A stretch of 64,000 nt of DNA from Apostichopus japonicus (lineage: Eukaryota; Echinodermata; Holothuroidea; Aspidochirotida; Stichopodidae), in the NCBI RefSeq assembly GCF_037975245.1, contig NC_092579.1, positions 8,214,001 to 8,278,000 on the forward strand, in the 5' to 3' direction. The translations under genes and the position numbers were made by a program. The notes beneath the pieces are model-generated. The model saw only the letters and a program-made list of their open reading frames with translations. It ran no database searches and had not been told where the DNA came from. This document shows, one piece after another, positions 2,246-27,651 of this stretch (the stretch's first letter is position 1; every line of letters begins with the position of its first letter).

Positions 2246-2651
2246 ATGGCGACTACCAAGTATAACTCTATATGTATTTCTACTGAAAAAGTTACGCCTT
2301 CCGCCAAAAAGTTTCCTGTGGCTTTTTGGCTGATCGTTAAAGGCCTTTGGCTGTTCCATTACAAATCGGTCGTTCAAGACAGAAAATGCTTTAAATGTAG
2401 CGTCCATAAATTGATGAGGAACAGGAAAGAGTGCCTCCAACCAGACGGCCCACCAAGGACCAAGGTTGAAGTGATTGATTCGTTGCTTCTGTCTTACGAT
2501 AGAAACGACGACAAACGGTTTCGGAAGGAAGAGGCCAAATCGAATCTATCTGTAAATATTCAAGATGGCGATTGTGAGGTCTGTGAGGTCTGTGATACTG
2601 AGTGGTGGGATTATTTTGGCAGGACCTGTAGATATACGGAAGAAGACATCG
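2246..2651 (+). CDS. Gustatory receptor-like gene A, candidate exon 1
   Basis: Open frame from ATG for 135 codons plus one base, ending at a strong donor (TCG|GTGAGT). The phase-1 end fits the exon at 10387, whose only open frame needs two starting bases to complete a codon. Residues about 23-43 contain FWLIVKGLWLF, resembling the N-terminal hydrophobic 'GLF/GLW' segment of insect chemoreceptor-superfamily proteins. The rest is hydrophilic and ends in an unusual Cys cluster (CEVCEVCD), partly made by a direct repeat of GAGGTCTGT. I infer this to be the N-terminal exon because of the donor, the phase match and its conservation in both segment copies. The 7.7 kb intron it implies is long and filled with retroelements, and further exons could lie in it. 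Copy B differs at two residues here (C/R and Q/R). Confidence 0.45.
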
Positions 2652-4374
2652 GTGAGTAATGTCAGTGGTTCAAATACTGCGACAGGTGATATAGTCTGAT
2701 AACGTAATGTACTCGTAATTATGTACCATAAAAACATCTCTCTCGAGAGAGAGAAAAACACACCAGAAGAAGATCATGGATTTATGGCAAGTACGGTACG
2801 GCCGGGGATTGGGTGCACAAAAAAAAAAGTCACAGAAATGACGAAAACAACTGTGAAAGGATGTTATAGCCTATGGTGTGATGATCTCCCAAACGCCTAT
2901 ATACTAAAAACTGAAACAATAACATTTCTGAAAGGAAGGAATTTGGAAGAAAGAAAGAAAGAAAATAGGACTCGAAGCTTTCCAACTAAATATTTGTGTT
3001 CAGGTAATATTAGCATGTTAAATATCTGGGCGACAAGACTTTGATAATCAAATTGATCAATAAGCCCTACTCGTACAGTAATCTTCATTTTTTCTTGAAA
3101 AATAAATTATCTCGGAAACTCGGAAACTCTTTTAACCAGTAGTGGTAATTTTAGCGCTTATGGTCGGTATTAAACTGTAAATCATTGTTATTGAAATTTT
3201 ATATAAACTGTTCCTACATGGACAAGCGTATATACACGCTGCCTTTGAAAATCTAACAATACTTCTGCAGTCGTTATACATAACCGTATAATAGCAATAA
3301 GCGGTTCAAGCGATGTCAGTGACACATGGCACCTAGGATTGGTTCATACATTTTGAGCCAACGTATCACAACTGCTAGTCACATTTCTGCACGAAAATAA
3401 TTGGATGGTTCTAACATGGCTTATGCCTAAAGTTTGTTTTAGTTTACTACTAACAACTGGTTTTTCTAATTGAAAACTTGACAGCTGTACTTCATATCCA
3501 GATTATGACGGTGCCCTTTTCTCTAAAGTGACACCATTATGGTTTTAGTAAAGGCCCAGCTCTCTTTCTTGGACCGGGCCAGCATTATTCCATTGGTCGT
3601 GAATTATCAAAGGGGCCGGGGGGGGGGGAGGGGGTGTTGAGAGACCAGTTCTCATAAAACGGCACCGACCGAGGAGCTAACGACTTCATCGAGTTAGTAT
3701 TAGAACTTCAAGCATTGAATACATTTCAAGATATTACTAGCTTGAAACGTTGCAAGTTATGAAACATAACCTGAGCCCAACACATTTTCTCCTTGTTAGA
3801 TTATATAACAGTCATGTCCATCTAAAGTAAAGATCCTTTATTGTAATAAAGAAATATGGGATTGTAATCCCTTGTTCATATCATTGTCTAATAATAACGG
3901 TAAGGCAGAACAGAACAGTTCCGTTTATATTTTTGTACAACCATACCACGCAATACACTCTGTACTAGCCTTTACATGAGTTACTGGAAGAATTCACAAA
4001 CAATGGCATTTTATTTCGTGTCTTCAATATTTTATGGATATAGTAAAAGTTATCAATTATTGATTGCTCTTCTGTTGATATCTTCTGTTTTGAATACTTT
4101 CCAAACAATTAACAATACAAACAGATTGAAAATGAAACTGAATTGTATTACTTTTAGGTCAGTAGGTTATATTCACCAGAGAGCACAATAAACAGAAAAC
4201 TGAGTTACCATCAAGCACGACAAAAGCAAGTGTGTCTTTTCCCGATTTCTTCAAGCCTCTGTTATATAACCTGGCTATGTATGAGGATGCGGGAAGAGGG
4301 GCGGGGAGGGGGGGGGGAACTCCCCACAAAATATGACACGTGAAATGGTGAATATATAGATTATATTTTCATTT
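2652..4374. other. Receptor A intron 1, first part; nothing recognised
   Basis: No supported exon or named repeat. A short palindrome of CTCTCTCGAGAGAG lies near 2740. A 71-codon hydrophobic frame at 3976 was considered as an exon and rejected on phase. Confidence 0.5.
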
Positions 4375-6296
4375 ATACATATATATTTGTATATTTGTAT
4401 TTGTATATTTATTTGTTTCATCACAATTTAGAGTGTGACGGGAAGTCTCATATAAAGCCTGTAAGGCTTAACAAAGTAGGAGACTCCCCAAAAAGAAAAA
4501 AGAAAGAAAAACTTAAGAATAGAAAAAGAAAAGTTAATAGTAGCATCTACAATGATGAAATAATCGAATTGTCTCTACTTGAAATTAATAATGTTAATAA
4601 GCAAACCTAACAATCTTTATAATGATCTTAATCGCAAACACACACAAGAATAAATCCATCAATAGTGAGAAATAATTACAGTTTGGAGATTCCTTTTGAA
4701 TACAGACTAAGAAGGCTTATTCTTAACATTATCCTGGAGATTATTCCACGTTTTTATAGCACGAATACGAGGGTTAAAAGAACTTAAAGTACTTCGTTGG
4801 GATAAAACATGGGCGTTATTACAATGGCGTGTTTGATGGTTGTGGATTAGTCTATTACTATATATAAAATCTTTAAAAGCCTCGGGTAGCAATCCATTCC
4901 ATGCTTTATATGCAAATGTTGCAAGCTGGACTCTTATAATATCATTTAGTTTTAATAAATTTAATCTTTTGTATAATGGGCTAGTATGATCACGTGGTGC
5001 AGCATGTGATATATGGCGGATAGCTCTCTTCTGGAGGACACATAGGTGATTAAGATTTGTAGAATAGGTTCCTGACCAAATAGTCGTGCAATAAGTTAAT
5101 TGGTGTAAAATCAGAGTTATATAGAGTGTTCTGAGTACATTTGGAGGTAAATAATGTTTTAATTTGCATATAATACCAGTATTTCTAGCCACTCTGTTAC
5201 AGACTGCTGATATGTGATCACGCCACGAAAGTTTATTGTCTATGTGTACACCCAAGAACTTAGTAGTGTTAACCCGATTAATAATTTTATCATTCATGGT
5301 AATATTGTGATCCCATCTGAATGAGTGACTAGCATTAAACACCATATAATTAGTTTTTTTCTATATTAAGAGATAATTTGTTTGCTGCAAACCAGCTGGA
5401 AAATTTAGTTATAAGAAACAGTTTTATGTGATGAGAGTCGATTTTGGGAATCGAAGAAAATATTTGTGTCGTCGGCAAATAATATTGTTTTAGCAATATC
5501 GGAGACATTAACGATATCATTGACATAAATTATAAATAGTAATGGACCTAGTATAGAACCCTGAGGAACTCCGCAAGCGATTTTAGCAAGTTCAGATTTA
5601 GAATTTTTATATAAAGTGTACTGGTATCTATTTGAAAGATAACTATCTAGCCAATTTAGGGTTGTTCCTCTGATACCATAAAAAAAACCCATTTACTTAG
5701 TAATATTTTGTGAGTGATGGTGTCAAAAGCTTTGGATAGGTCGAGAAATACGCCTACACAGGTATTATTCTTATCAAGACTATTATAAATATTGTTGACT
5801 GCATCTGCTAAAGCTAATTCTGTAGAATGGTCAGGACGAAATCCGTACTGCTCGTTATTAAGAACATTATATTTACATAGAAAACTGTATATACGATTAA
5901 ACATTAATCGTTCAATGATTTTTGAAAAGACTGACAATAAAGATATAGGGCGGTAATTCTCAAAATGACTGGGGTCTCCTTTTTTAAAGATTGGTTTTAC
6001 CTTTGCTATTTTAAGCTTATCCGGAAAAATGCCGGTGTTAAAAGAAATATTGCAGAGATGAGTTAAAGGCTTTACAATGTATGGGATAACTTGTTTGATA
6101 ATACATGGCTTAAAGTCATCATAGTCTGCTGCTTTGTTTGGTCTCACATTTCTGTGAGCAACTTTTAAAACTTCTTCTACTGTTACTGGATATGTTAATA
6201 TGGAATGGCATACCTTGTCATTATTATGTAAAAAATGTTCCGCTTTTAGTTTAATATTAATCTTACTAGCGAGGTTATAACCAAGATTTACAAAGT
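4375..6296 (-). mobile_element. 5'-truncated non-LTR retrotransposon (Jockey/CR1-like), copy 1
   Basis: Minus-strand LINE fragment. Reverse-transcriptase motifs appear in order: FKKGDPSHFENYRPISLLSV, YGFRPDHST, VFLDLSKAFDTI, GVPQGSILGPLLFIIYVNDI and FADDTNIF (the YADD-type catalytic box). A C-terminal region with WRDHI and LYITLILHQLTYCTTIW follows. The frame is broken near 5690 and 5400, and an 8-bp deletion at about 5415 distinguishes it from the copy at 20.3 kb. The 5' end stops at a (TA)n tract inside the region between endonuclease and RT, so the endonuclease is lost. The 3' end on the low-coordinate side has a tail built from ATACAAAT-like units. It was inserted before the segmental duplication because both copies share the insertion site and truncation. 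Jockey versus CR1 placement needs a tree. Confidence 0.85.
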
Positions 6297-26385: not shown

Positions 26386-26905
26386 GTTAGTTTATTTCCA
26401 TTATCTACAAAAAAAGAAAGAAAGATTTCTCAGATATACAGAAAAGTCAATAAAGGTTTTTTCTTCTTTTCGTACACGCAATTAAAGTATGTACACGTAA
26501 TGAACACTAGAAAAAAATATGTTTTTAATATTACACGACAGCAACCATGAGAGGAAAAAAAACAACCCGGAAGAAAATTCCAAGAATTTCATGTTAAATA
26601 TGCCTATTTATTTTTTATATATTTAAATCTCGTATCAGCTAATCTGAACATTGATAATTTTCGAGTAATATATGAATGAAAACCCCTGACTTACAATGTG
26701 AATGTACAAATATTTAGGCTTTAAACTTTGAGGTTATGGATGGAGTACTCAACACGTGACTTTAAATATAATATCAATCATAAAAAATGTTCTAGTATTA
26801 CACGGATAGGTAAATTTTCCGGTATTTAAATTTCTTGTTTTTTTCTCACATTTTTCCATCGGTCTCTTTGAAATGACTTTCCTTTATTTTTATTTTCTTC
26901 CAAAG

Positions 26906-27651
26906 GAATGCCTGGTAAATATTTTCTCTTCCTCTGTATGCTATGGCCGTTCTTAAACTCTTGTTACCGCGCCATCATTTATTTCTACCTAAGCGAGTGT
27001 GAATTTGACAGTCACGTGGTGACGACTGCCCTCTTTGGAATTATTATGATGGAGACTTGGGGACTGTTCGTCTACCTCATCTACTTCATCCGGGTATCAT
27101 TCCAGAGGCAGTTTTCTCTCATCCTAGTGTACCTCCGGGATTTCGAGGGTCACATTGATCGTTGCCGAGGGGCGATTCTATGTGCATTTGCAGATTATAA
27201 CCTATTTAAAACTTTCTGTAACGGATATTTCTTGCTAACCTTCCCCGTGATCGTCATTGGATTGACGTCACACATCACATGGCAGTACTTACTTTATCAA
27301 GTTTGTGCGACGGACTTGTCGATCATGAAAACTCAAAATTTTCTCCGATGGTTAGTACTGTCCGAGATATCGATGGCGCTCTTCTTATATATCTTCGCAA
27401 GTGGTGGCATGAGTGTCAACTACCTTGGCCTACAGTTACATTCGAACGTTTTGAAGTTAAAATCAGCAGCGCATGCTCTCTTTTGGGATGAAATTGTGCA
27501 AGTCGTCGATACGACGAACAGAGGGTCTCAATTATTGTACCTAAGCGTATTTTTCTCAACTGTTGGTATCTTTATGTCGCTTCAATTTAATGATCAAGAT
27601 GTCACGTATATGAATGCGCGGTATAACACAACAAATATGACGATTTGCTGA
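26906..27651 (+). CDS. Gustatory receptor-like gene B, exon 3 (C-terminal)
   Basis: Encodes the same 247-248 residues as gene A exon 3, with no amino-acid difference and at least one silent change (GTG/GTC in the second helix of this exon). It has five membrane helices ending in the TM7-like GIFMSLQF. The intron before it is 520 bp. Both genes of the pair therefore look functional, with strong conservation of the pore-side half in the model. Confidence 0.6.

Follow-up and report, generated by a model that had tools for sequence, protein, structure and literature searches.

Does a sea cucumber carry relatives of the insect gustatory receptors (GRs) and odorant receptors (ORs) that sequence searches pass over? 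The question is raised by genes A and B, two neighbouring genes in a 64,000-base window of the Apostichopus japonicus genome (the whole stretch analysed, bases 8,214,001-8,278,000 of the 32.4-Mb contig C19, in an assembly of 671.6 Mb and 35 contigs), which the initial annotation had assigned to the superfamily of these receptors. We consider it probable that A and B arose by recent tandem duplication and belong to a large and sequence-cryptic part of the seven-transmembrane ion channel (7TMIC) superfamily, which comprises insect GRs and ORs and the gustatory receptor-like proteins (GRLs) of non-arthropods. The computed basis of this reading is the gene structure, the family in the genome, the constraint on older paralogs, and the predicted fold of transmembrane helices (TMs) 3 to 7. 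The earlier superfamily assignment was probably right, for partly accidental reasons.

The exons of the two genes are as follows.

2246..2651, plus strand: gene A exon 1, with ATG, the N-terminus with a P..FW hydrophobic segment and a CxxC...CxxC-WW module, and a phase-1 donor (from the spliced frame and exon-1 relatives)
10387..10692, plus strand: gene A exon 2, encoding TM1-TM2 in 306 bases, with a phase-1 intron at either end
11203..11948, plus strand: gene A exon 3, TM3-TM7 and a C-terminal tail with two N-glycosylation sequons, stop included
18154..18559, plus strand: gene B exon 1 (from the spliced frame and exon-1 relatives)
26080..26385, plus strand: gene B exon 2 (from the spliced frame and exon-2 relatives)
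26906..27651, plus strand: gene B exon 3, stop included, encoding a protein identical to that of gene A exon 3

Each gene (A, 2246-11948; B, 18154-27651) was read as three plus-strand exons that splice into a frame of 485 amino acids ending in TGA, with GT-AG borders at all introns and both introns of each gene in phase 1 (intron 1 measures 7.7 kb in gene A and 7.5 kb in gene B, and intron 2 about 0.5 kb). At the level of these reading frames, the previously described pair of complete three-exon genes is confirmed as a real observation. Homology speaks for the exon joins: relatives located by tblastn show the same three blocks, in the same order and with the same end residues, in the fetched stretches that hold them; exon 1 lay outside the stretch or was not found in some of these (L009, L019). 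Across 23 distinct copies of exon 2, the acceptor AG stands at the same position in all and the donor in 20, with an exon of slightly different length in L006, L017 and L019. GT is present at the expected exon-1 donor in 20/20 copies.

A search of the genome with exon 3 returned 60 rows, which were merged to 57 loci on five contigs (C19, 46; C6, 7; C15, 2; C4, 1; C17, 1), and a search with exons 1 and 2 returned 102 rows; for families of this size such match counts are to be read as "at least". At 41 of the 57 loci exon 3 is unbroken and no stop was scored; the scoring is strict, since L041 was entered as stop-bearing although its frame runs for 233 aa before reaching its own stop. Since so many loci carry relatives of the last exon, most of them uninterrupted, the observation is more than chance. 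The divergent relative L029 (145-1275, minus strand, contig C17) lacks the TM2-TM3 intron and holds exons 2 and 3, TM1 to TM7, in one frame. A tree of 37 exon-3 sequences contains clusters of near-identical neighbours, and the ratio of nonsynonymous to synonymous substitution (dN/dS) is below 1 in 59 of 62 pairs (median 0.29; three above 1; pairs at least 55% identical and non-independent). By these comparisons the family is large and still duplicating, and the pattern agrees with birth and death acting on genes that are on the whole constrained. Stop-bearing relics of exons 1 and 2 lie at three places in C19:8,805,000-8,918,100, one of them read as L068, and are probably pseudogenes.

The link to GRs and ORs comes from predicted structure. 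The structural matches of the gene A TM3-TM7 model at ranks 1-17 are all insect GR or OR chains, at 7-11% identity in the alignments, and the model of the seven-helix relative L029 has GRs and ORs at ranks 1-19, with an unrelated row tied at the end. By the ranges given, these alignments span TM3 to TM7. TM7 is predicted to be split in both models (helices 190-203 and 209-226 in gene A; 310-325 and 333-350 in L029), and the gene A model has long TM4 and TM5 helices. Of the two-part check that had been proposed for the superfamily assignment, the structural half is therefore favourable; the profile half failed, with no 7tm_6 or 7tm_7 match in gene A or in 36 family members. Residues P240, R259, R300, S302 and Y365 are invariant in these members, and C324, F303, G404 and Q468 nearly so. 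Mean entropy is lowest in the cytoplasmic extension of TM4 (1.41 bits) and highest in the third extracellular loop (EL3; 2.60 bits), but TM7a, expected to belong to the anchor, is variable as well (2.43 bits). The distribution agrees in part with a common anchor for assembly and outer parts that vary.

Several results weigh against placing A and B in the superfamily. Pfam searches found no 7tm_6 or 7tm_7 match in gene A (E up to 10) or in the 36 exon-3 members (E up to 1; 7tm_7 is PF08395), and no GR or OR match in four members searched at E up to 10. PF08395 run over the sea cucumber genome gave two weak matches, neither over the cut-off, and none in the control genomes. Sequence searches of the PDB returned no GR or OR. 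The strict TYhhhhhQF motif (h, hydrophobic) occurs in 0/36 members and QF alone in 9/36, the near-invariant glutamine being Q468, four residues past the Q of QF. None of the canonical phase-0 3' introns is present in A or B, where both introns are in phase 1 and TM3-TM7 occupy one exon. By the sequence marks of 7tm_7 and TYhhhhhQF, A and B are not canonical GRs or GRLs. The best of the weak PF08395 genome matches (L046) is an open reading frame that by eye resembles a class-A G-protein-coupled receptor (GPCR). On a separate point, Chitin_bind_4 (PF00379, arthropod cuticle) had no match in the 671.6 Mb, nor in the control genomes; its absence speaks against an arthropod, and the "outside arthropods" of the initial annotation is likely.

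The initial annotation had argued from two motifs, a TM7 ending in hydrophobic-QF and a GR-like N-terminus reading VKGLWLF. The first is present in gene A and does not hold across the family; with the profiles failing and the motif so rare, that argument was largely luck. As for the second, an FW...L.LF segment in exon 1 is common to the relatives and presumably resembles the start of GRs and ORs, and it is kept as weak support. PMC9998090 describes the TM7 motif as conserved only in part, or not at all, outside insects, with topology and structure as the main grounds for inclusion in the superfamily. On that basis we place the family as probable 7TMICs or GRLs, not as canonical GRs.

Topology was read with TM borders set by eye, exon 1 giving the N-terminus, exon 2 TM1-TM2 and exon 3 TM3-TM7. 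Gene A shows seven segments that are clearly hydrophobic, of which the seventh closes with QF, so that the earlier description of a seven-helix protein holds for these; it omits a borderline eighth stretch at residues 25-43, in exon 1 (hydropathy 1.31, the threshold being 1.3). The first two intracellular loops (IL1 and IL2) are long and basic and EL1 and EL2 short and acidic, while IL3 and EL3 are without charge bias. If the N-terminus is inside, the intracellular loops measure 42, 42 and 39 residues and the extracellular ones 12, 11 and 19, by the same by-eye borders. An N-glycosylation sequon lies in the tail after TM7 in 26/36 members and in IL2 in 0/36. The charges of IL1 and IL2 and the C-tail sequons favour an N-in/C-out orientation, as in insect GRs and ORs, and we regard this as likely; the eighth hydrophobic stretch, together with sequons in 11/20 copies of exon 1, makes it less certain.

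Exon 1 encodes a feature of its own. The P..FW segment is followed by [KRQ]CxxC and, after a spacer that spans 39-62 residues in the measured rows, by a second CxxC and WW, which L060 reduces to a single W. The two CxxC pairs are present in 29/29 first exons seen whole, that is, with WW in 20/20 of the main exon-1 set and in 9/9 further whole first exons, of which L068 has stops; L067 shows the second pair only. Against the PDB, exon 1 found no relative. Pfam searches with 13 exon-1 rows gave only weak matches to c-type cytochromes (PF13435 at 0.0014 in 1/13; PF14522 in 2/13), which we attribute to the histidine that follows the first CxxC in 11/20 first exons (the L010-L028 set; not in gene A), CxxCH being a c-type haem motif elsewhere. 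The simplest explanation of the module would be a structural zinc site facing the cytoplasm, which might serve assembly or trafficking. We know of no insect GR or OR with such a CxxC...CxxC segment, though no sequence database of these receptors was searched for it. New here are this N-terminal module and the size of the sequence-cryptic 7TMIC expansion.

The recent origin of A and B is seen in two units.

2089..16592, strand not assigned: duplication unit 1, gene A and opposite-strand tektin exons
17997..32326, strand not assigned: duplication unit 2, gene B and opposite-strand tektin exons

Aligned pieces of this tandem duplication of about 14.5 kb are 94-98% identical, the noncoding parts compared differ by 0.4-3.2%, and 9 codons distinguish A from B (2 synonymous, 7 nonsynonymous). 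With so few differences, coding and noncoding, the duplication is recent, and little can be learned about selection from these two genes by themselves. Codons 161-169, at the outer end of TM1, hold four of the seven amino-acid changes, a cluster that could reflect selection or gene conversion. A third tandem copy, 96-97% identical, lies left of the window (C19:8,179,614, exon 1; 8,205,357, exon 2; 8,206,154, exon 3). The "tandem pair" of the initial annotation was too small a term: A and B are two of three tandem copies, and the family counts about 57 loci.

Minus-strand exons of a tektin gene (38826-39653, 31068-31898, 15327-16166) are interleaved with the candidate receptor genes. The N-terminal exon occurs once and two later exons twice, 98-100% alike, and the best PDB matches of a tektin exon are tektin-3 chains, which do not discriminate between phyla. 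As each unit combines a candidate receptor gene with two opposite-strand tektin exons, gene B seems to lie within the span of the tektin gene. Intron 1 of both A and B holds minus-strand frames that by eye resemble reverse transcriptases (FADDT; 4707-6408 and 20611-22321); their presence in both copies suggests that insertion probably preceded the duplication. GIY-YIG-like frames (by eye, Penelope-type) lie at 244-900 and 7334-8486, along with long (AT)n runs. Neither the reverse-transcriptase-like frame 4707-5360 nor the GIY-YIG-like frame 7334-8110 had a Pfam match at 0.01. Outside the main duplication, 17302-17551 and 37323-37572 are 98% alike over 250 bases. A tandem array of 35-bp repeats begins at 55417, with alternate copies more alike, which makes a higher-order unit of 70 bp; another array, also of short period, occupies 63260-64000, at the right end of the window.

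Invertebrate GPCR chemoreceptors also have seven helices and form large tandem clusters, and such an identity gains from the eighth hydrophobic stretch and from the sequons in exon 1, which make the orientation less certain. We nevertheless hold it very improbable: Pfam gave no 7tm_1 or other GPCR match in gene A or the 36 members at the E-values above, the IL1/IL2 charges and C-tail sequons favour N-in, and GPCRs are absent from the 50 structural matches listed for the gene A model and from the list of its seven-helix relative, a single one (probability 0.06) appearing among the 50 matches listed in a further structural search. An unrelated inverted seven-helix family whose long helices converged on the OR/GR arrangement is hardly more plausible, given that the top ranks of both models are GRs and ORs without exception, aligned from TM3 to TM7, and that both split TM7.

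The same 7TMIC fold might serve development, gametes or ciliated cells in place of neural chemoreception. Such roles have been reported or suggested for PHTF and for some GRLs outside insects, and we treat this as a serious minority possibility. The unit in the window is interleaved with exons of a gene for a protein of cilia and sperm, a proximity that may be chance. The size of the family and its tandem birth-and-death pattern speak for the other role, since large families of this kind are typical of chemoreceptor repertoires. For the role outside chemoreception, two papers report that GRLs of Nematostella and sea urchin are expressed early in development, where one may act in apical body patterning (PMC7746228), and that other 7TMICs are expressed in spermatocytes and muscle (PMC9998090).

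If A and B are 7TMICs, four subunits would come together by way of the cytoplasmic extensions of TM4-TM6, with TM7b lining a cation pore, and a ligand in the outer half of the helix bundle would open the channel. The family would then be an ionotropic chemoreceptor repertoire specific to its lineage and expanding through tandem birth and death. More speculatively, and with the odds against it, this unrecognised GR/OR-type radiation could be a main chemoreceptor repertoire of a non-arthropod and an independent counterpart of the insect expansion, with the tetracysteine module, as a zinc-binding part on the cytoplasmic side, tethering or gating the channel and so adding a new regulatory domain. 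GRLs outside arthropods are thinly described, and because the profile searches of this analysis miss the A/B family, the known size of the superfamily and its spread in animals may be underestimated. The roughly 57 loci with common exon borders are a ready set for expression studies and electrophysiology, and the family allows one to test whether large chemoreceptor repertoires of the ionotropic kind have evolved repeatedly.

Compared with insect GRs (structures of BmGr9, DmGr43a and DmGr64a), the family is alike in its predicted TM3-TM7 fold, long TM4 and TM5, split TM7 and probable N-in/C-out orientation, and differs in its low structural-alignment identity, the lack of a strict TYhhhhhQF, the extra N-terminal CxxC...CxxC segment, and phase-1 introns with none inside TM3-TM7. 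To insect ORs and Orco no sequence link was found, nor was a co-receptor identified, no search having been aimed at one, and the phase-1 introns contrast with the phase-0 pattern described for the family. GRLs do occur in non-arthropods, according to PMC7746228. With those of Nematostella, sea urchin, molluscs, annelids and Trichoplax the A/B family would share a GR-like fold outside insects, whereas it escapes the 7tm_7 profile and numbers about 57 loci. PHTF, as the available text of PMC9998090 presents it, differs in a first intracellular loop of more than 300 aa, and that text mentions no tetracysteine module for PHTF or the cryptic Drosophila Grls. It describes an N-terminal region of about 100 residues in PHTF, and both PHTF and the Grls were, like the A/B family, recognised by structure.

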